Below are positions 7,255 through 27,576 of a DNA stretch of 64,000 nucleotides, one piece after another. Both the position numbers and the translations under genes were made by a program. A model generated the notes under the pieces. The model saw nothing but the letters and a program-made list of their open reading frames with translations. It ran no database searches and had not been told where the DNA came from. Within the stretch, counting starts at the first letter, position 1. Each line of letters starts with the position of its first letter. The DNA comes from Deltaproteobacteria bacterium (GTDB lineage Bacteria; Desulfobacterota; Desulfobacteria; Desulfobacterales; JAFDMD01). The stretch is taken from assembly GCA_019306065.1 (NCBI GenBank), contig JAFDMF010000001.1:1-64000 (forward strand), read 5' to 3'.

Positions 7255-7352
7255 TGGCGGAAGCGCATGGGAATCGAACCCACCCGGGACGGTATTAATG
7301 CCCCACACCGGATTTGAAGTCCGGGAGCCCCGCCAGAGAGCTGGGCGCTTCC
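7255..7352 (-). tRNA. selC: Selenocysteine tRNA, anticodon TCA, CCA encoded
   Basis: Read on the minus strand from 7352, the RNA opens with GGAAGCGC and closes with GCGCTTCC, an 8-bp acceptor stem characteristic of bacterial tRNA-Sec. The anticodon loop is CTTCAAA with anticodon TCA (reads UGA). There is a long extra arm (TGTGGGGC ... GTCCCGGG), and the T loop is GGTTCGATTCC. The body is 95 nt (7258-7352), with discriminator G at 7258 and CCA encoded at 7257-7255. This shows that the organism decodes UGA as selenocysteine, so in-frame TGA codons elsewhere in the genome deserve care. No selA, selB or selD lies in the window. Confidence 0.95.
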
Positions 7353-7367: not shown

Positions 7368-8279
7368 TTATTGTTGCTTATCCGTAGAAACTTTAAGATT
7401 TACCCCTATCTGATCCAAAAAGAGTTCCTTAACCCATTCAGGCGGCCTTTTGTTTTCCCATACGCAGGTTTTTATATATTTTTTGCATATATTAGGATAT
7501 TTTACAAAAGGAGAAAAAGAGCCTTTAAGTTCGCCTACGTTCCATTTTTTATAATAATCGACTGCTTTTTTGTCTCCGTAATTTTCAAAAAAACGGATTC
7601 TTTTATTTAAATTAAACTCTCCGAGATAAACAAAATCAATTATCGAAGTAGCCATTGTATCGAACAAAAATTTATCATTATTTGTAAGGGCGTTTGTAAC
7701 TTCTATGGCAAAATCTCCGATCAAAATCATTTTTTTATCTGCGACAGATAAGCTTTCATAATATATTTTGGGTCTTTTGGCAATATTAAACCACCCTGGC
7801 AATATTTCCAGCGCTTTTTTGTAGTTATAATCGGGCCAAACTTGGGATATTATATTTTCTATAATTTTTGTATCTATTATTCCCTGCTCTTCGTCTTCAC
7901 CTATAATAACAGGTTCTATTATTCCTTGTTTTGCCTCTTCTATTATTTTCAACTGAAATACCGGATAATTTTTTTCATTATAATTTATTTCGCCGTAATC
8001 TATAAAAGAGAGTATATCTGCAAAGGCATCTTGCGGTATTCCAAAGACAAAATCGTCTTCATTTGATTTTCCTGCGCCTTGTTTATATATTAATATCATT
8101 TTTTTATCATTGGAAAACCGCGCGGGAGTTATAAGAAAAGAGGGTCTTATAAGACCTCCCGAAAACGTGTTTTCGCCGCTTAAAAGGATTTCTCTGTTTA
8201 CCGAGGATATTATAAGGTTGCATATAATCAGAAGAAATAATATCAAAAGAATCATTAAAATTGATACGCGCTCGTTCAC
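7368..8279 (-). CDS. Tandem ExbD/MotB-like membrane protein B, without the channel aspartate
   Basis: A 303-residue protein with one N-terminal membrane segment (about residues 6-27, ILMILLILFLLIICNLI) and a large periplasmic part. It is a clear paralogue of the preceding gene: both share ENTF.GG, FIDYGEI, KRPKIYYESL, a FDTxAT stretch, YYKKW and a WVKxLFLDxIGVxLK ending. The start is GTG at 8279 inside a GTGA overlap with the stop of the upstream paralogue, preceded by GGAGG, so translation is coupled. Unlike its paralogue, the membrane segment has no aspartate, so it probably cannot carry protons itself. No OmpA-type peptidoglycan-binding domain is visible. The function is not known. Confidence 0.72.
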   Translation of the reverse strand: MNERVSILMILLILFLLIICNLIISSVNREILLSGENTFSGGLIRPSFLITPARFSNDKKMILIYKQGAGKSNEDDFVFGIPQDAFADILSFIDYGEINYNEKNYPVFQLKIIEEAKQGIIEPVIIGEDEEQGIIDTKIIENIISQVWPDYNYKKALEILPGWFNIAKRPKIYYESLSVADKKMILIGDFAIEVTNALTNNDKFLFDTMATSIIDFVYLGEFNLNKRIRFFENYGDKKAVDYYKKWNVGELKGSFSPFVKYPNICKKYIKTCVWENKRPPEWVKELFLDQIGVNLKVSTDKQQ

Positions 8280-9235
8280 CTGCCGCTAACCTCCGCTTCT
8301 ATATTTCCGTTTCTTGAGCCTATGATTTTAAGCTTTACCCCGATTCTATCAAGAAATAATCCTTTAACCCATACCGGAAGTTTTTCATTGTTTAAAACGC
8401 GGGCTTTAATATATTCTATTCTAGGTCTGTTATACTTTGCCAACGGCGAAAGCATGTCTCCAGGATTTTCGCGCCATTTTTTATAATAAGCCAATGCTTT
8501 GTCTGTTCCGTATTTTTCTAAAAAACGGAGTCTTTCTTCACTATCGAATTTACCGAGATAAACAAAATCCATCATTTCGGTGGCAAGAGTGTCGAATATG
8601 AATTTGTAATAAGAAGATATTCCAGCAGTTACGTCTATAATTATGTTTCCTATTACGATCATTTTATGACCGTTATTTTCCAAACTTTCATAATATATTT
8701 TGGGTCTTTTATTGATTTTAAATGAGCCGAACAGATTTTCGGGCAATTCTTCGATGTTATAATCGGGCCAAATATCTTTAAGGATATCTGTTAAGATTTT
8801 TTTATCTATTTTGCCGTTATTTCCTTCTTCATTTATAATTACCTTGTTGGTTATGTTTTGATTATCTTCGGATAGTTTTATATTAAAAACCGGATAATGC
8901 TTGTTTTCCAGTATAATTTCGCCGTAATCTATAAAGCCTATCAACCCTGCGAAGCCTTCGGCTGTCAAACCGAATAATGAAGCGTCCGATCTGATATCAT
9001 CTTCTCCGTGTTTATATATGTAAATTATATTTTTATCTGAGAAACGAATCGGCGATATTGAAAAACCTGGCATTGTCATGCCTCCTACAAAGGTATTTTC
9101 TTTACTTGAAAATTCAACTGTTAAAACGCTGAATGTAAATCTTACGATAACAAGAAGAAATATTAATAAAAGTATGGTTAAAAGATCAACTAAAGTATCG
9201 CCTATTTCGTCGTCTACATATAAAGGTAATCTCAT
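8276..9235 (-). CDS. ExbD/MotB-like membrane protein A, with a channel-type aspartate
   Basis: A 319-residue protein. Residues 11-36 read DEIGDTLVDLLTILLLIFLL, matching the ExbD/TolR/MotB layout in which an aspartate at the mouth of the single transmembrane helix carries protons. The rest is a unique periplasmic domain with no recognised fold, duplicated in the next gene. It follows a TolQ/MotA-like gene by 28 bp, the usual partner order. Unlike MotB or TolR it lacks an evident OmpA-like or TolR C-terminal domain. The call rests on the membrane segment and the gene context; the role is unknown. Confidence 0.72.
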   Translation of the reverse strand: MRLPLYVDDEIGDTLVDLLTILLLIFLLVIVRFTFSVLTVEFSSKENTFVGGMTMPGFSISPIRFSDKNIIYIYKHGEDDIRSDASLFGLTAEGFAGLIGFIDYGEIILENKHYPVFNIKLSEDNQNITNKVIINEEGNNGKIDKKILTDILKDIWPDYNIEELPENLFGSFKINKRPKIYYESLENNGHKMIVIGNIIIDVTAGISSYYKFIFDTLATEMMDFVYLGKFDSEERLRFLEKYGTDKALAYYKKWRENPGDMLSPLAKYNRPRIEYIKARVLNNEKLPVWVKGLFLDRIGVKLKIIGSRNGNIEAEVSGR

Positions 9236-9263
9236 GTTGTTATCGCTTTTAATTCATTTTTTT

Positions 9264-10253
9264 TTATTCGGAAGTTTTTTTTATTCTACCGCTTATTACA
9301 TCGGATTTATTTGAAAATATCGGGTTTATTTTTTCTACGCTTTTATGAAGCTTATATATGTCTTTAAAAAAATGCTTTAATGTGCCGGAAAGGGATTCTA
9401 CTTTTACCACTGCATGCTCTGCCGTACCTGCAATTTCGGATGAAACGGCATTTAAATTTTTTGAAAGGGATTCAAATGTCGAGAATAATTTTCTGGCATT
9501 GTTATTCATAATATTAACATTATCATTCATAACCCCGAATAATTTCTGAAAAGCCTCATGCTGTAATAAGAGGTCTTTATACTCCTGATCATAAGCGCGG
9601 CTACGATGCTTGGCATGTATTTTAATTAATTTCAACCTCATTTGCGAAACACTCTTAGACAACAGGTTGTTATGAAGTATTAAATTGATTCTTAACGAAA
9701 TTCCGCCCCCGAACGCTCCGAAAAGGGTGGTATAAAAAGCGGTGTCAACGCCGCTTAATATGTTATTCATTTCATTTAAAAGCGTAGCGGCATTACCGTT
9801 TCCCGAAGTAGCCATTGCTCCTCTTAACCCGGACATTGCAATAATTAAGCCGAATACCGTGCCAAGAAAACCAGACGTAATTAAAATGTTGGACAATGAC
9901 ACTATCATGTTTAAATATCTTCCTACCTTGCTTTCATATATTTTTATATATTCTTTCAGTATATTCAAATTTGTATCGGCATATTGATTCTTAATTTCAT
10001 CAATTATGCTTTTTCCTACGCCATCTTTTCTATTATCAAAAATAAGAGCGTTATTTTCGTTATATAACAGAGATTGCTGCCTATAAGAAAAGAATAAACC
10101 CAACAAAAATATTAAGGTTATAATAATTAGAAAAATTTGCGAAATGGTATCTAATGCAAAAACGTATTTGATAAATATTAAAATCATAACTGCCAGACTC
10201 ATACCAGAAAATATTGTCCAGCTTATAAATGTTTTGGTCAGCAGCTTTTTCAT
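9264..10253 (-). CDS. MotA/TolQ/ExbB-family proton-channel protein with a long C-terminal tail
   Basis: A 329-residue protein from the ATG at 10253 (AGAGAG upstream), preferred over an upstream TTG. Two N-terminal membrane helices (about 8-30 and 34-55) precede a cytoplasmic loop. Two further helices carry the family signature: LITSGFLGTVFGLIIAMSGL (about 125-145) and GVDTAFYTTLFGAFGGG (about 170-190). The last 110 residues are predicted helical and polar (NVNIMNNNARKLFSTFESL), longer than in TolQ or ExbB and reminiscent of the tails of ZorA-type MotA homologues. It forms an operon with two ExbD-like genes. A 147-bp gap holding a palindrome separates it from the pilus-like genes upstream. Confidence 0.8.
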   Translation of the reverse strand: MKKLLTKTFISWTIFSGMSLAVMILIFIKYVFALDTISQIFLIIITLIFLLGLFFSYRQQSLLYNENNALIFDNRKDGVGKSIIDEIKNQYADTNLNILKEYIKIYESKVGRYLNMIVSLSNILITSGFLGTVFGLIIAMSGLRGAMATSGNGNAATLLNEMNNILSGVDTAFYTTLFGAFGGGISLRINLILHNNLLSKSVSQMRLKLIKIHAKHRSRAYDQEYKDLLLQHEAFQKLFGVMNDNVNIMNNNARKLFSTFESLSKNLNAVSSEIAGTAEHAVVKVESLSGTLKHFFKDIYKLHKSVEKINPIFSNKSDVISGRIKKTSE

Positions 10254-10313
10254 ATCTATCTCTCTTTTCAAATTTTTATATGTTTATTCCGTTACCAGCC
10301 TGTAAGGTATAAA

Positions 10314-10341
10314 GTATAGACGTTGCAGGCAACGTCTATAC
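10314..10341. repeat. GTATAGAC palindrome, 13-bp perfect arms
   Basis: Arms GTATAGACGTTGC and GCAACGTCTATAC with a 2-base centre. It lies about 78 bp behind the stop of the GspF-like gene. Two relatives (27601 and 48246) also sit just behind genes. It may serve as a transcript-end hairpin, but no T tract follows immediately. Confidence 0.85.
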
Positions 10342-10418
10342 AGATCAAATTCTTAATCATAGTCTATTCTTGTTAATCATATAAATCAAAATCCAGACTA
10401 TTATGAGATTTCTTCTTA

Positions 10419-11414
10419 TTATAATATTTTTATTAAAAACAAAAAAAATCCTAATAAAAATACGCTTATAATAAAAAATATTACAAGGCTTACTATTGCT
10501 ATTATAAAATTAGTTATTAATTTATTTCCGGCATTATAAAGATCAAGCTCCGAAAGAGCGGCGATATATTGAAAATTTTTACTGTCCATAGCGGTATCGG
10601 ATATATCTGCCGCTATTTTTATTGAGTATGTAGGGAAAAAATCTTTTTTTGTATCTTCAAAAGCTTTATCTAACTGTTTTCCTGAAGTTACGCTATTATA
10701 AACCTCTTTTATGACTATTTGAAAGTAACTTTTTCCGTTTGTACAGGCTATATTAAGAGATTCTTTTAGCTTAATACCATTGGAACAAAGAAGAAATAAT
10801 TTGCGAAAAAATCGGTTTAATAAAAAATATTTTCTAACTTTTGATGCGGAGATATTCCATGAAATAAAAAAATTATCGCAAAAAATAGGGTTGATAACCG
10901 TTACTATTAGTAAAAATGCTAAAATTATTATACCTCCGTTAAATAATAAAGGCAGAATTTTCTTTATATTAGTTAAGATAAATGTAATCTTTTCGTTTAT
11001 CAACTCCGGCAAATATTGGCCGATATTAGGAATTATATTATAAAGCAAGGCGTTAAATCCGCTATAAGCCGCAGTTATAATAGCTCCGATCAAAAAAAAA
11101 AGAAGTGTGATTCGAAATAAAAGAATAGCCGTTTTATTTTTAAAATTTTTTAAATTATAAAGTGTATGCCTTAAATCCTTTTCGGTTGTGGCTGCGGAAA
11201 TAAGAGTATCTTCGACATCTGATAGAATAAATTCTTTTTTTACCGCTGAATAAAAAGACCTACCTTCCGAAATAGCGGACGCTACGGCTATTTCTTTGTG
11301 TGCGGGCTTATTATTTTTATCTAAAATATATACGGCTATTTTGTTTATTGAAAATTCCGCATTCAGTAATATCAGAATTTTTTCAAAAAATATCTCTTTT
11401 TCTCTGATCAGCAT
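10419..11414 (-). CDS. GspF/PilC/PilR-like inner-membrane platform protein
   Basis: A 331-residue polytopic protein with the two-fold repeat layout of type II secretion and type IV pilus platform proteins. A soluble helical domain (1-95) is followed by two membrane helices (about 100-120 and 160-185), a second soluble repeat (about 195-285, FFRKLFLLCSNGIKLKESL and GKQLDKAF) and a C-terminal membrane helix (305-328). In characterised systems this protein couples the assembly ATPase to the growing (pseudo)pilus. No such ATPase gene lies in the window. It is the last gene of the secretin operon, 18 bp from its neighbour. Confidence 0.78.
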   Translation of the reverse strand: MLIREKEIFFEKILILLNAEFSINKIAVYILDKNNKPAHKEIAVASAISEGRSFYSAVKKEFILSDVEDTLISAATTEKDLRHTLYNLKNFKNKTAILLFRITLLFFLIGAIITAAYSGFNALLYNIIPNIGQYLPELINEKITFILTNIKKILPLLFNGGIIILAFLLIVTVINPIFCDNFFISWNISASKVRKYFLLNRFFRKLFLLCSNGIKLKESLNIACTNGKSYFQIVIKEVYNSVTSGKQLDKAFEDTKKDFFPTYSIKIAADISDTAMDSKNFQYIAALSELDLYNAGNKLITNFIIAIVSLVIFFIISVFLLGFFLFLIKIL

Positions 11415-11432
11415 AAAATTTTACCGTAATCT

Positions 11433-12074
11433 CTATTGTTTTGATTTTCCAAATTTTTTCGGTACATTTGCTCCATAGCCTAAATAGATACTCTCGGGCG
11501 CCATCCCCTCTTTTTTCACAATAATGTGATTTTCTTTTACTTCCAAAAGCGTATAGCCTGAAATATTATCTCCTTCTTTTACTACTCGGTTTGTATTGTT
11601 TACAACAATTACGGCTTTCTTTTTTAAATAATTTATTGCAAACACTCTGATAAAACCGGAAGCGGACGTTTTGGGAATAACCTTTTTTATTAACGGTTTG
11701 CTTTTGGTTTTAATAGGTTCTCGCTTTTTCGGTTCGTTTGCCGAAGATAAGCTTTCAATATCTCTTCTAAGCTCCGCTATCATCTTCTTTTTTTTAAGAT
11801 CTATTATTTCGCTTAAGAAAGCCTCGTCTTCTTGAAACTGCTCTTTTGTAGCTTCTTCGATTTTCTTTTTTATCAGTCCTTTTTCAATGTCTCTAATGTC
11901 CTCTATACCGGACCGGACATCTTCTATGTTTTGCTGCATCGCTTCTACGTTTTTTAAAAGAATGTCATCTTCTTTCGGCTTTAAAGCGTAACGGGCAAAA
12001 TATAAAATAGTAGATATTACAAGAAGCAGTATTGATAATATTATTATATCTTTTCTACTAAATTTATATTTCAT
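11433..12074 (-). CDS. PilP/GspC-like inner-membrane protein
   Basis: A 213-residue protein with one N-terminal membrane helix (10-27), a Lys/Glu-rich coiled coil (about 35-115), a Pro/Lys linker and a C-terminal small beta domain (about 135-200). The C-terminal pattern RVVKEGDNISGYTLLEV followed by IIVKKEG matches the homology-region style of PilP and GspC proteins, which link the inner-membrane platform to the secretin. The start overlaps the previous stop (ATGA at 12071-12074). Assignment rests on domain layout and position; sequence identity to known PilP is low by eye. Confidence 0.6.
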   Translation of the reverse strand: MKYKFSRKDIIILSILLLVISTILYFARYALKPKEDDILLKNVEAMQQNIEDVRSGIEDIRDIEKGLIKKKIEEATKEQFQEDEAFLSEIIDLKKKKMIAELRRDIESLSSANEPKKREPIKTKSKPLIKKVIPKTSASGFIRVFAINYLKKKAVIVVNNTNRVVKEGDNISGYTLLEVKENHIIVKKEGMAPESIYLGYGANVPKKFGKSKQ

Positions 12075-12535
12075 TTTTTACCATACATCCTTGCATTAAT
12101 TACGGCTCCTTTTGTTTCCCCTTCCATGGAATGAATTAATAAAAAATTTTGAAAATTATTTAAAAGCATTTTTATCGTATATATTTGCTCAAAAATATCG
12201 CCATTAATAATTATGGTAATATCTTTATATTTTCCCATATAATCGGTAACAGTTGTTTTAACATCTTTATCTTCGCCGGTATAAGTTATTTGTAATTTAC
12301 CCAAACCTATTTTTTTTATGGAATAGAGTTTTTCTATATTTGCATCTAAATAATCTAAAGAAGATTCGGAAAGCGGAATAAGCTCGTTATAAACTTTTAT
12401 ATCATTAAGAGGAATAGCAAGGCTTATATCCGAAATGTCATTTCCGATTCTGAAATTATCTATCCCCTCACAAAATAAAAAAAAAGCCGCAATAATTAAT
12501 ATAGCGGATGTAAATGTTTTTATTATATCTTTCAA
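12071..12535 (-). CDS. PilO/GspM-like small inner-membrane protein
   Basis: A 154-residue protein with one N-terminal membrane helix (8-23), a short periplasmic coil and a ferredoxin-like alpha/beta pattern (KLQITYTG ... DITIIINGDIFEQIYTIK ... LLIHSMEG). That is the usual architecture of PilO, PilN and GspM/GspL periplasmic domains. It sits between the secretin and the platform protein, where these subunits are found. The specific subunit identity is inferred only from size, topology and order. Confidence 0.5.
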   Translation of the reverse strand: MKDIIKTFTSAILIIAAFFLFCEGIDNFRIGNDISDISLAIPLNDIKVYNELIPLSESSLDYLDANIEKLYSIKKIGLGKLQITYTGEDKDVKTTVTDYMGKYKDITIIINGDIFEQIYTIKMLLNNFQNFLLIHSMEGETKGAVINARMYGKK

Positions 12536-12545
12536 TTCCGAAAAC

Positions 12546-12956
12546 CTAAAAAAAACGTATGAAATATTTGGAACCGTCTATTCTTATTTCGCCATATCTT
12601 ATAAGTTTTTCCAGCATAGCCATATCGTCTTCGCCGGTTGTTTCCAGTTCAAGCAAGCCGTTATATTTATATCTATATTTTTTTATTCCGCTATACGGCA
12701 AATTTAAAGCGGTTCTTAAAATTGTTCTATAAACCAATAAAGAAATATTGTTGCTTGCAATTACGCTTCCGGCTTTTCTAGCGACCTCATTTTCAAAATC
12801 GCGATAAAAAATTCTTGCTTTTTCATAATGTTGTTCTGCCAGTTTTTCTTTTGAATTTTTTATAATCAACCCGATGCTAAACAGTATCAATGAGAATAAA
12901 AATAAAGCTATCGAAAAATAAAAAAAAAATGAAACTCTGTTTTGAGATTTTACCAT
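12546..12956 (-). CDS. Small single-pass membrane protein of the secretin operon
   Basis: A 136-residue protein with a strongly hydrophobic helix at residues 9-32 and a Lys/Arg-rich periplasmic domain ending in DGSKYFIRFF. No family is recognised. It overlaps the secretin stop by 7 bp and precedes the PilO-like gene by 10 bp, so it is very probably part of the same assembly machine, perhaps as a GspL/PilN-like or MshJ-like subunit. It is distinct enough that function should not be asserted. Confidence 0.5.
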   Translation of the reverse strand: MVKSQNRVSFFFYFSIALFLFSLILFSIGLIIKNSKEKLAEQHYEKARIFYRDFENEVARKAGSVIASNNISLLVYRTILRTALNLPYSGIKKYRYKYNGLLELETTGEDDMAMLEKLIRYGEIRIDGSKYFIRFF

Positions 12957-14683
12957 GAAACTTCTACCATTATAGCCACTTCGGAAATCTTTTTATGAGT
13001 CGATTTATATTGGAAGGGGATACCGAGTATCGGAATATCTCCCACAAACGGCACTCTTTTATCTGTTTTTATTTCCTCTTCCGCCATTAATCCGCTGATT
13101 AAAATTGTGCTTCCGTTTTTGACGTTAACAACTGTCTGTGTCTGTTTCAAACTAAGGCTCGGAGCTTCTACGGTAGCATTATCTCCTGCCTGAATGGTTC
13201 GCTGTTCTTGTAAAGCGGTTATTTCCGGAGATATATAAACAAGAGCCTCTTCGTCGGATATTATTCTGGGAAGCACATAAAAGCTTAAACCTGTTTGAAG
13301 CGGTTTTACTATAATGGAAGTGGTAACCGCATCCGAAACGGTTTTGGAGGAATATGACTGAGCTACATAAGACAAGGTTTGACCTACTATAAGCGAGCCT
13401 ATGGCGCCGTTTAAAACCGTTAAAGAGGGTTTGCTTATAACTTTTACGTCGCCGTATTCTTCTAATGCTCTTATATATGAATTAAGAGCGCCAGCGGCAA
13501 ATGAAGCCGATATTGCTATGGTATTACTCGCTATACTTGAAAAACCGCCGGCGGAACCGGTTAAACTTTTGTCGCCGCTAAGCACTTTAAAAAAACCGCC
13601 GTTTAATGCCGTAGAGCTCAATGCCTTATCCCAGTCTATACCATGCTCGTGCGCTTTATTTAATGTAACCTCCGTAATTATACCTTTTACATTTACCGGA
13701 ATTCTCAGTCTTTTATTAAGCTTTGCTATAAATTCGCCTATTCTGTCAACGACGTCTCCTCTGTCTCGTATCCATATAGTGCCTGTTTCTTTATGAATTG
13801 CAAATTTACCGGTTTCGGTTAAAAACGGTTTTATGGTCTCCGAAAGGCTTTCGACCGTAGAGGTTTTTCCGAAAGCCATTGCAGTGCTAAGTGCCGAAGA
13901 CATACCACCGTCCGAATAACTGTTTGTGCTTGCGGAAGAAGAAACTGTTCCGCTGCCTCCGACAGTATTGCCGATGCGTGAAGAAGTGATTTCAAAAGAT
14001 TGAGACATTAAAGGAAAGAATATATCAAACAGAGCCTCTTTTTCTTTATAGATATAATAAACTCCATCTTTTTTTTCCCAAAAAAGTTTAATCTGCGCAA
14101 GAAGTCTGTCTAAAGCTATACTAAGAGGAATTTCGTCAAAATCTGCCGTAACGATAGTATTTAATTCATCCTCCGCTCCGTCTTTTAAGGAATAATTATA
14201 GCCGCTTAACATAGCGGTTACAACTAGCCCGAAGGGCTGATTATACGCCATAAATGTAATAACAGGCTGTTTTATAATAATAATACTGTTATTCGATCTT
14301 TTAACATATCCAAGCCCTTTGGGTTTAAGAATTCTTGTTAAAATTTCGCTAACGGTTTTTTTTTCTGCATTTAAAGTGATAGGAATATTGATTGGAACGC
14401 CTTCCTCAAATTCAAAATTTTTTATGAGCTGGCGAATTACTCTTGAAAGAGGCTCTTTGTAAAAAGAGACCTTAACTTTTTTTTCAAAAACATTATGTTC
14501 TATATCCGAATGTTCTATATCCGATTGTGCAGACGTAAGCGCGGTTTTATAAATATCAGCCTGTTTTTTTATCTCGGAAAATTGTTCTATATTAATCTCA
14601 TTTTTCCCCCCATCAGTAACGCAGCCTCCAACAAAACAAAATGATACTACAGACATCAATATGAAAAAAAATTTTCTACTCAT
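12950..14683 (-). CDS. Outer-membrane secretin lipoprotein (PilN/MshL-like)
   Basis: About 577 residues from the ATG at 14683, placed 8 bases after a GGTGGGAG ribosome site; the GTG further upstream is less likely. A lipoprotein signal ends SFCFVGGC. Residues about 70-140 form a secretin/TonB short N-terminal-like domain (VIRQLIKNFEFEEG, SEILTRIL). A Ser/Gly-rich linker precedes an N1-like ring-building domain (IWIRDRGDVVDRIGEFI). The C-terminal third is the beta-barrel secretin domain with the hallmark VPFVGDIPILGIPF followed by VAIMVEV. The lipoprotein type and short gene set resemble type IVb (R64 thin pilus or MSHA) secretins rather than PilQ. It would form a large gated channel in the outer membrane. 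Confidence 0.92.
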   Translation of the reverse strand: MSRKFFFILMSVVSFCFVGGCVTDGGKNEINIEQFSEIKKQADIYKTALTSAQSDIEHSDIEHNVFEKKVKVSFYKEPLSRVIRQLIKNFEFEEGVPINIPITLNAEKKTVSEILTRILKPKGLGYVKRSNNSIIIIKQPVITFMAYNQPFGLVVTAMLSGYNYSLKDGAEDELNTIVTADFDEIPLSIALDRLLAQIKLFWEKKDGVYYIYKEKEALFDIFFPLMSQSFEITSSRIGNTVGGSGTVSSSASTNSYSDGGMSSALSTAMAFGKTSTVESLSETIKPFLTETGKFAIHKETGTIWIRDRGDVVDRIGEFIAKLNKRLRIPVNVKGIITEVTLNKAHEHGIDWDKALSSTALNGGFFKVLSGDKSLTGSAGGFSSIASNTIAISASFAAGALNSYIRALEEYGDVKVISKPSLTVLNGAIGSLIVGQTLSYVAQSYSSKTVSDAVTTSIIVKPLQTGLSFYVLPRIISDEEALVYISPEITALQEQRTIQAGDNATVEAPSLSLKQTQTVVNVKNGSTILISGLMAEEEIKTDKRVPFVGDIPILGIPFQYKSTHKKISEVAIMVEVSW

Positions 14684-15557
14684 GGAATATGCTCCCACCT
14701 ATTTTTTGTAAGTCATTTTCAGAAAAGAACGATAACAAACCGAAATCTATATTAATATTTTTTTTTTTATCTTTCAAAAAGTCATATTCGGTAGCTTTAT
14801 TTATTATAGCTCTATTTACTAATACTCCTGTTTTAATAACGTTTTTTAATTCAATTATAACATAATTATCATCAAACTCGAAAATTTTATTATATACCTT
14901 ATTTTTTTCATTATTATGTAACGTCTTTATTTCGGAAACAATCAAATGATTTTTTTCATTCTCCTGTATATCCATTTCCCAAACTTCAATTCCGACTTTT
15001 TCCGAAGCGGCTTTAAGGCTGGTTTTTAACGCTTGGGCATGAATTTTTTCCGCCAGCTTTTTGCTCGGATTATTTGCCCTGAAAAAAGCCTGAAAAATAT
15101 CGTCAACCGCCATAGGCTCTATTATAAGACGGTAATAATCCTCTTTCATATATCCTTTTATCTTGCCATAAAGTCCCTTCAGTATGGTGTTTGCTTCTAT
15201 AGTATTAATTGCGTTATCTCGTAAAATCGAAATATTTTTTTTTTTTAATATCTCTTTTTTTATCCCAGTTATTATTAAATAATATAAAGTCTCCTTGTTG
15301 GTTTTCTGCGCATTTCCGATTACTTCGCCTATCCAGCCTTCCACTTTGGATAGTTTCCACAAATCTGAATATGTATAACGGATACCGTTATTTCCTATAG
15401 TAACGATGGTTGCATTATAAAAAAAAAATCCCGCTATAGATATTAAAAGGATAGATAATCCTATTATCAAAAAAAACTTTTTGAGAAACCTTATTTTTAA
15501 ATAACCCTTATTAACGTTTTGAGAACTGGTAGCGAGCTCTTGCTCCTTTCTGACCAT
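14676..15557 (-). CDS. Membrane-anchored SurA/PpiD-like protein without an evident isomerase domain
   Basis: A 293-residue protein. A cytoplasmic N-terminus precedes one membrane helix (about 27-48, [20 protein letters not shown]). The periplasmic part is helical and resembles the N-terminal chaperone domain of SurA/PpiD-type proteins ([19 protein letters not shown]), with no clear rotamase motif. The ATG at 15557 lies inside rpsI, 47 bp before its stop, preceded by AGAGAG, so translation may be coupled to ribosomal protein S9. A TTG near 15475 is an alternative. As first gene of the secretin operon it may help a secreted or outer-membrane component fold; this is inference. Confidence 0.6.
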
Positions 15558-25674: not shown

Positions 25675-27576
25675 ATGCTTAGTTTTATGCGCACACATGC
25701 AACCGGCTGGATTATTAAAGTATTGCTAGGCGCTATTGTGGTGGTTTTTATATTCTGGGGAGCTGGCTCTTTTAACTCGGAAAATAAAAACAACATCGGA
25801 ACAGTAAATGGCAAGCCTATAACAATTGAGAAATATAACGAAGTTTATAATAGACTTACGGCAGATATAAGCCGAAAGTTCGGAAAAGAACTGGATAAAA
25901 AAATGCTGAAAACATTAGATATAGAAAAAAAGAGTTTTCTTTATCTTGTAGATAAAATTATTTTATCCGACGAAGCAAAAAGACTTAATATTAAAGTTGC
26001 AAATCAAGAACTTGCCAATGCCATAAAAAAGAATAAAACCTTTCAAAACGAAAACGGAGTTTTTGACGATCAAATATATAACAGAGTATTAAACGCAAGC
26101 AGAATGACTCCCGAAAAATACGAAGCCTCTCTCAAAGAGGATATGGTTATACAAAAGCTTATAATGTTTGTTATAGGAAATGCAAAAGCAGGGGAAGGGG
26201 AAGCCCGTAAGTGGTATAATTGGCAAAATTCCTCGGTTAATATAAAATACCTTTTTTTCGATCCGTTATCTTATAAAAACATATCTGTTTCCAAACAGGA
26301 AATAAAAGATTACTTTAAAACCCATTCCCAAGATTACAAAACGCCAGAGCAGGTAAAAATAGAATATTGCAGTTTTAACATCTCCGACTATCAAAAAAAA
26401 ATCAATATTTCGGAACAGGAAATAAAAAATCATTATGAAACAAATATCGAAAAATATAAAAGTCCAAAAAAAGTAGAAGCAAGGCATATCCTATTAAAAC
26501 TTGATAAAGATGCAGATAAAAAAAAAGTAGCGGCAAGAAAACAGGAGGCTTATGATATAATCCGCAAAGCAAAAAACGGAGAAGACTTTGCAGAACTTGC
26601 GGTTAAATTTTCCGAAGGTCCAAGCGCCGCAAACGGAGGTTATATTAGTCCTTTTACCAAAGAAATGATGGTTAAACCTTTTAGCGAAGTCGCTTTTTCA
26701 TTAAAAGGGCAGGAAATCAGCCAGCCTGTAAAAACCGTTTTCGGCTGGCATATAATAAAAGCGGAAAAAATCCATAATAAAAAAATTACAAGTTTTAACG
26801 AGGCTAAACAAAATATAGCGACGCAATTAAAGGCTGAAAAAGCAAAAATTATGGCTTTTGCCGATGCCGAAGAACTTTATAACGCTTTAACCCTGCGATC
26901 CGATTGGACAGCGGTTTCAAAAGAAAAACAAATTTCCATTATTCAAACCGACTTTTTCACTTTCGACTCTCCGCATAGAGATATAGAAGATAAAGATACG
27001 GTTATAGAAGCGGCTTTTGCGCTTCAAAACATGGAGATAAGCGATATTATCGAATCAAAAAACGAGTTTGTAGTTATCCGCGTAATCGACAGAATTCTTC
27101 CTGAAATTCCGGCATTGGAAAAAGTCAAAGATAAAATTGAAAAAGATCTGAAAATAATAATCCAAAGAGATAAAGCAAAAAAGGATGCCCAAAACGCATT
27201 AAAAGCTTTAAGTAAAGATAAGGTTTTTGAAGATATTGCCAAAAAATATAATCTTGATTCGAATATTACCGGATTTTTCAAAAAAACAGAACGAATAAAA
27301 GATAACGGATATGATTCGATGCCGGTATCTAAAGCCGCTTTTGAAATAAGTTCCGAAAAGCCATATAAAATAGTATCCGTCAAAAAAGGCTGGTACCTAA
27401 TTGCATTAATAGATAAAAAATTTCCTAAAAAAGGGGAATTTGAAAAGAATAAAGAAAAAACTTTAAATATAATAAAAGAGATAAAACGAGAAGAATTATA
27501 TATAAAATGGCTTGCAGAATTAAGAAATAAAGCAAAAATATCAACAGGAAAACTCTTTAACAATAAAAAAAAATAA
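25675..27576 (+). CDS. ppiD: PpiD-like periplasmic foldase (SurA_N plus parvulin domains)
   Basis: A 633-residue protein matching PpiD in length and plan. One N-terminal membrane anchor (13-31, WIIKVLLGAIVVVFIFWGAG) precedes a SurA-type helical chaperone domain (about 40-200). A parvulin rotamase follows (about 258-360: KVEARHILLKL, FAELAVKFSEGPSAANGG, FGWHIIKAEKI). A large C-terminal domain completes it. It would sit at the inner membrane facing the periplasm and help newly exported outer-membrane proteins fold. GGAG lies ahead of the ATG. Confidence 0.87.
   Translation: MLSFMRTHATGWIIKVLLGAIVVVFIFWGAGSFNSENKNNIGTVNGKPITIEKYNEVYNRLTADISRKFGKELDKKMLKTLDIEKKSFLYLVDKIILSDEAKRLNIKVANQELANAIKKNKTFQNENGVFDDQIYNRVLNASRMTPEKYEASLKEDMVIQKLIMFVIGNAKAGEGEARKWYNWQNSSVNIKYLFFDPLSYKNISVSKQEIKDYFKTHSQDYKTPEQVKIEYCSFNISDYQKKINISEQEIKNHYETNIEKYKSPKKVEARHILLKLDKDADKKKVAARKQEAYDIIRKAKNGEDFAELAVKFSEGPSAANGGYISPFTKEMMVKPFSEVAFSLKGQEISQPVKTVFGWHIIKAEKIHNKKITSFNEAKQNIATQLKAEKAKIMAFADAEELYNALTLRSDWTAVSKEKQISIIQTDFFTFDSPHRDIEDKDTVIEAAFALQNMEISDIIESKNEFVVIRVIDRILPEIPALEKVKDKIEKDLKIIIQRDKAKKDAQNALKALSKDKVFEDIAKKYNLDSNITGFFKKTERIKDNGYDSMPVSKAAFEISSEKPYKIVSVKKGWYLIALIDKKFPKKGEFEKNKEKTLNIIKEIKREELYIKWLAELRNKAKISTGKLFNNKKK

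Follow-up and report, generated by a model that had tools for sequence, protein, structure and literature searches.

Can a secretin assembly of the type IV filament family be driven by proton flow in place of a cytoplasmic ATPase? The question is raised by a 64,000-nucleotide stretch of DNA (positions 1–64,000 of contig JAFDMF010000001.1, assembly GCA_019306065.1, Deltaproteobacteria bacterium, Desulfobacterales, JAFDMD01; hereafter the window), in which nine collinear open reading frames (ORFs) on the minus strand, 7368–15557, encode a secretin module (a membrane-anchored protein, the secretin, three small proteins and a GspF-type platform protein) and, beside it, a motor module (one A and two B subunits); inside either module the ORFs overlap or are spaced by no more than 29 bp. 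The host genome (1.97 Mb, 47 contigs, 93% complete) was compared with two genomes of the same genus (congeners; 99 and 97% complete), whose nine locus proteins are 75–90% identical to those of the window; the ratio of nonsynonymous to synonymous substitution rates (dN/dS) was 0.10–0.52 over the nine genes, each set against one or two congeners. The locus is composed of two separable modules under purifying selection. Functional coupling of the secretin module to the motor is plausible, at a little under an even chance; the narrower claim, a type IV filament-related secretin machine whose ATPase is replaced by an ion-driven motor with asymmetric B subunits and a single protonatable site per motor, is put forward tentatively and is the more doubtful of the two. 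Coupling is strengthened by the motif losses of the GspF protein together with the lack of a spare ATPase in the assembled genomes, and weakened by the independence of the motor in relatives.

The secretin, recognised as such in the initial annotation, was confirmed by Pfam (Table 1), and a lipobox-like cysteine (VGGC) was recognised by eye near its N-terminus; its best NCBIfam model is TIGR02519 MshL (8e-54; 182.6 bits, below the cut-off of 250.2). Neither a GspE-type ATPase nor a PilM/GspL docking protein was found among the proteins of the secretin operon (Pfam, NCBIfam), and no pilin is present. Above the cut-off, the host genome contains one long PilB-type and one PilT-type ATPase, both on other contigs (best NCBIfam models: PilB, below its cut-off; PilT, above its cut-off). 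Each congener has one long PilB/GspE-type match and one PilT-type match; the sole extra above-cut-off T2SSE match in the congeners is a short ORF of genome G001, read as VirB11-like beside VirD4-like. These two ORFs stand side by side in G001 (L022:3–2244) and might belong to a type IV secretion element. PilC and a pilMNOPQ cluster that includes a PilQ of its own are located on other contigs of the host genome; the PilM-like protein of this separate cluster is just below the cut-off of its model, no genome search for others having been made. N-methyl pilin matches number one in the host genome (on another contig) and seven and three in the congeners; a pilin might be shared with the secretin operon.

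The platform protein is GspF-like, as had been annotated, with a T2SSF match above the cut-off; it is degenerate: neither the N-domain nor any of the motifs YP, EP and GExxG is present. Ten full-length GspF/MshG sequences picked from the loci of secretin relatives were aligned, 34 columns being invariant among the ten; residues kept in these columns: window protein – 8/34; congeners – 9/34 and 9/34; PilC of the same genome – 28/34. Tyr-Pro of the first membrane segment, Glu-Pro of the last one and GExxG of both cytoplasmic domains are lost; the congener proteins retain the first Glu, single-column alignment being uncertain for so divergent a protein. For the type II secretion system (T2SS) protein PulF, passages of PMC10790770 report that the N-domain is not essential, that the YP/EP residues line the channel and are assigned to ion conduction, and that Cyto1/Cyto2 contact the ATPase in the T2SS model. 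The losses of YP/EP and GExxG are more telling than the missing N-domain, because the latter was reported as not essential for PulF. On our own reading GExxG itself would make the contact with the ATPase; to judge by its sequence, a GspF as degenerate as this one probably does not couple to PilB.

The A subunit has an above-cut-off match to MotA_ExbB, and its best PADLOC match is ZorA1 (1e-12, residues 92–283), which extends into the tail. ATG at 10253 is a likelier start than TTG at 10271. About four transmembrane helices and a helical cytoplasmic tail were predicted (hydropathy and a low-confidence model); with the TolQ-, ExbB- and ZorA-like proteins of the genome the A subunit has in common a GxxGT..G motif as well as a Thr in the last helix. 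Structure prediction from a two-row alignment gave an all-helical model (predicted local distance difference test, pLDDT, 55.3), with which Foldseek found nothing at E up to 0.001. The earlier description of a TolQ/MotA-like channel protein with a long tail is retained as to the channel; the tail, predicted to be helical, is a short one in this genus.

The B subunits had been called ExbD-like. Resemblance to ExbD/TolR profiles was found for the transmembrane helix alone (14–20 columns); neither protein matches Pfam ExbD (PF02472) at E up to 1, and Ser replaces Asp in one of them. D17 of B subunit a aligns with the Asp of the TolR-, ExbD- and ZorB-like proteins of the genome; Ser is found at this position of B subunit b in all three species of the genus, the dN/dS of this gene being 0.13–0.16. 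No Pfam family, peptidoglycan-binding domains included, was matched by the periplasmic part of the B subunits, for which PDB sequences gave nothing better than E 0.012; PDB sequence searches with the A and B subunits yielded nothing useful. A structure prediction of B subunit a from a six-row alignment was discarded (pLDDT 40.5, too low). As far as sequence allows it to be classified, the motor would belong to the 5:2 motors and departs from the known ones in its asymmetric B pair, its unmatched periplasmic domain and its ZorA-like tail. A mixed B pair is the simplest reading because one paralogue lost the Asp and both are under purifying selection, and it points to an axle made of two unlike B subunits with only one proton site. 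Of the new features of the locus, the asymmetry of the B pair is the clearest, and it stands whether or not the modules couple.

The order secretin – three small proteins – GspF – MotA – B – B was seen in three species of the genus; in G001 a contig break falls inside the secretin, the upstream part being located on another contig, and in the other congener a stretch of N splits the A-subunit ORF. This gene order, the comparison suggested in the initial annotation, is weak evidence of coupling, the three species being close congeners with conserved flanks. Secretin relatives (E up to 1e-20) are present in 39 of 242 genomes from the order; this number includes the three species of the genus, and outside it the identity is 22–32%. 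Of the secretin matches in these 39 genomes, 20 were examined together with their neighbourhoods; one comes from a congener, which leaves 19 loci: 11 contain a PilB-type best match and one (L097) a PilT-type one, the rest including short contigs. Two of the 19 secretins (L112, L113) resemble PilQ more closely than they do the window secretin and are GspD-type, not MshL-type.

The motor was searched for across the order and the phylum with the B subunits only, the A subunit being used in a scan of close relatives. The B-subunit profile matched 1/395 genomes of the phylum sample, namely the host itself (a broader profile gave the same). Within the order it matched 6/389 genomes (E up to 0.01), namely the three of the genus, two from another family (E 4e-67 and 6e-69; 2/12 genomes of that family) and, marginally, G568 (E 0.0098). 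The G568 match falls in a long ORF taken for an enzyme of the fatty-acid oxidation type and was judged to be due to chance. With the A subunit as sole query, 7/58 relatives were matched (its own genome listed besides); outside the genus these were only G024, G050, G043 and G015 (E 2e-7 or worse), and no secretin operon was recognised by eye in the neighbourhoods of the four. The motor loci outside the genus (L123, L124) have one B gene each, with Asp; the tails of their A subunits are roughly 300 and 450 residues long. ORFs L124:7059–9065 and L123:3831–5435 encode long-tailed MotA-like proteins, and in the former 9/10 motif matches are spaced by 32 residues. A gene for a coiled-coil protein with a lipobox (by eye) stands beside the motor (L124:10492–11953; L123:1857–2585); this family is found in 3/389 genomes of the order, i.e., L123, L124 and one weak match, and in none of the window's genus. 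In both settings, beside the secretin operon and beside the coiled-coil protein, the motor adjoins a gene for a presumed outer-membrane lipoprotein (lipobox by eye), which is suggestive only.

The following mechanism may be proposed. The secretin module is best read as a reduced MSHA/T2SS-related assembly that gave up its ATPase, and the second module as a MotA/ZorA-type proton motor with paralogous B subunits, only one of which carries the proton-binding Asp. In this genus the motor would most likely supply force across the periplasm to the secretin assembly, contact being made via the large B-subunit domains on the small membrane proteins or on the secretin. In the relatives the same motor would serve other outer-membrane partners, probably the coiled-coil lipoproteins, to judge by the gene neighbourhood. 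Of the idea that proton flow takes the place of the ATPase, voiced in the initial annotation, the lack of an ATPase in the operon, the loss of GspF motifs and the conserved order in the genus speak in favour, and the motor loci L123 and L124, in which no secretin is seen, against.

A competing explanation, which we consider credible and likewise a little below an even chance, is that the modules are mere neighbours: a free-standing motor with partners elsewhere, and a secretin operon that is a reduced MSHA-like system, using the single PilB or passive. Several observations weigh against coupling and in part for this explanation. The flanking rpsI and the tRNA-Sec gene (7255–7352, directly downstream of the motor genes and present in both congener loci) are likewise kept in the congeners, so that the adjacency may be plain synteny. 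None of the 19 secretin loci outside the genus contains a motor protein (0/19; phmmer, E up to 1e-3). No secretin or GspF gene is present on the motor contigs of either non-genus genome (2/2; L123, L124; contigs of only 7.4 and 12 kb), where the coiled-coil lipoprotein gene is found instead; the motor is not obligately tied to the secretin, because these contigs show it without secretin or GspF, and the circumstance named beforehand as speaking against coupling, relatives with the modules far apart or with the TolQ-like unit in an unrelated system, is partly encountered. The gap between the modules (147–223 bp) is far longer than the spacings inside them, and promoter-like matches are found in it here and in congener locus L014. 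With the genome at 93% completeness an ATPase may have been overlooked, and PilB might serve the operon as well. The low-confidence models (pLDDT 40.5 and 55.3) give no interface. The explanation as mere neighbours has to accommodate, on the other side, a second B gene found only in the genus with the adjacent secretin (one B gene in each of the other two genomes), a degenerate GspF for which coupling to PilB seems unlikely, and two modules lying on the same strand with a gap devoid of a terminator-like site.

The gap itself was analysed in the three species. It amounts to 147 bp up to the TTG start and 165 bp up to ATG at 10253; 207 and 223 bp up to ATG in the congeners. No terminator-like site was found in it in any of the three species. 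Promoter-like matches on the coding strand: window – two 9-of-12 matches, 10385–10356 and 10376–10349; L014 – two overlapping matches; L015 – none; in the region 56 such matches were counted vs 41.5 expected, which is near chance in AT-rich DNA. Both the gap and the palindrome previously noted in it are real; the palindrome core (ACGTTGC-NN-GCAACGT) occurs at 7 sites in 148 kb of the host genome (the window and six stretches; sites include the one in the gap and those in L040, L041 and L042) and is missing from both congener loci. A role of the palindrome in terminating or regulating the operon was rejected, since it is a dispersed genome repeat without a terminator call.

A Zorya-like signalling or defence motor, in which ion flow would be passed to the cytoplasmic tail and the periplasmic B domains would sense the envelope, is regarded as improbable. 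The A subunit is like Zorya ZorA in matching ZorA models and in its helical tail, the ZorA1 match reaching into this tail; ZorA has an elongated tail according to passages of PMC11890865, with which the long tails of the two relatives and the 32-residue repeats of L124 may be compared. The tail is, on the contrary, short in this genus, and the B subunits have no Pfam peptidoglycan-binding match; no recognisable ZorB peptidoglycan-binding domain, ZorC/D or ZorE was found among the nine proteins (Pfam, PADLOC), and the other eight proteins gave no PADLOC match (E up to 0.1) except a weak one of small protein 3 to a cyclase model. A separate ZorA2-like gene is present in the host genome (L038:4721–6740; below cut-off; the neighbour is ZorB-like by eye).

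Decay of the secretin operon as a remnant of an MSHA-like pilus system, to which the ATPase, PilM/MshI-type protein and pilins missing in comparison with several relatives of the order (names partly by eye), the lost invariant residues of the platform protein and dN/dS up to 0.52 might point, is very improbable, the ORFs of the secretin module being intact in all three species wherever the contigs cover them and the dN/dS of the secretin being 0.10–0.17.

Table 1. Features of the locus, listed from upstream to downstream on the minus strand.
Feature	Position	Strand	Characteristics
Membrane-anchored protein, family unassigned	14676–15557	-	One hydrophobic helix; 83% identical in L015
MshL-like secretin	12950–14698	-	Pfam Secretin 7e-31, STN 1e-9
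Small protein 1	12546–12956	-	One N-terminal transmembrane helix
Small protein 2	12071–12535	-	One N-terminal transmembrane helix
Small protein 3	11433–12074	-	One transmembrane helix; C-terminal part weakly MshK/GspC/PilP-like
GspF/PilC-type platform protein, degenerate	10419–11414	-	Pfam T2SSF 7.5e-14, above cut-off
Intermodule gap	10272–10418	.	One copy of a dispersed palindromic repeat, core 10317–10338
MotA/ExbB/ZorA-type A subunit	9264–10271	-	Pfam MotA_ExbB PF01618 7e-8, above cut-off
B subunit a	8276–9235	-	One transmembrane helix with motor Asp D17; periplasmic part of ~270 residues
B subunit b	7368–8279	-	Paralogue of a, about 46% identical; Ser for motor Asp

The remaining proteins of the secretin module are less readily assigned. 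Each of the three small proteins has one transmembrane helix, as had been proposed for them as membrane proteins; the proposed likeness to PilO/PilP is weak and confined to small protein 3. Small protein 1: no above-cut-off Pfam match and none to the PilN/O/P or MshJ/K-position sets; small protein 2: no useful match in Pfam, PDB sequences or the same sets; small protein 3: T2SSB 0.0047, CdsD_C 0.005 and T2SSC 0.1 at ca. residues 149–191 (Pfam; all below cut-off), a 64-column match to the MshK-position set (probability 28%, E 6e-4), which ranked first among 21 comparisons of this sort, and nothing useful in the PDB sequence search.

The first ORF of the module overlaps both of its neighbours, the rpsI ORF at its 3' end and the secretin at its start; the ORFs upstream were read by eye as what we take to be rplM and rpsI, without a family search. 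The names TolR, ExbD, ZorB, MshI/J/K/M/N, VirD4 and lipoprotein likewise come from no family search. The description of the first ORF as SurA-like was dropped: no above-cut-off match was obtained in Pfam or NCBIfam, the PDB sequence search gave nothing better than E 0.19, and comparison with the real SurA/PpiD-type protein of the window gave no match. The latter, at 25675–27576, has SurA_N and rotamase domains and is a genuine foldase of the SurA/PpiD type.

Among known systems, the MSHA/type IVb pilus and the T2SS are alike in having an MshL-like secretin, a GspF-type platform protein, a protein to which small protein 3 is weakly similar (MshK/GspC) and small one-helix proteins; the operon differs from them in the absence of the ATPase, PilM/GspL and pilin, in a platform protein without the invariant motifs and in the proton motor that follows. 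Type 9 secretion uses a different secretion channel, and models of GldL/GldM were not among the matches listed for the motor proteins (Pfam, NCBIfam). It is alike in idea, GldLM being a proton motor that drives an outer-membrane secretion machine (passages of PMC8986121). The gene cluster of the AglRQS gliding motor of Myxococcus likewise encodes a single A subunit (MotA/TolQ-like) and a pair of B subunits (TolR/MotB-like), and AglQ and AglS both match Pfam ExbD (parts of PMC3169522); both are predicted to carry the transmembrane Asp (parts of PMC9389320), whereas the B subunits of the locus have no Pfam ExbD match, one of them lacks the Asp, and the A subunit is tailed. ExbB/ExbD/TonB with Oar, also of Myxococcus, is linked to the proton motive force and needed for PopC secretion (excerpts of PMC6434023); its outer-membrane part is a TonB-dependent transporter, not a secretin. 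It has been proposed that the membrane potential powers type IV filament machines with PulF as the channel (passages of PMC10790770); in that model PulF itself conducts via YP/EP, whereas the GspF of the locus lacks these motifs and a separate motor adjoins it. No secretin system with a MotA/ExbB-type motor was met in the open-access literature, among the matches listed.

Should the two modules be coupled, the locus would be a natural example of a type IV filament-family machine whose engine was exchanged, and it would test how far the membrane potential alone drives such machines, a question raised for PulF. The asymmetric B pair makes the sufficiency of one Asp per motor directly testable.

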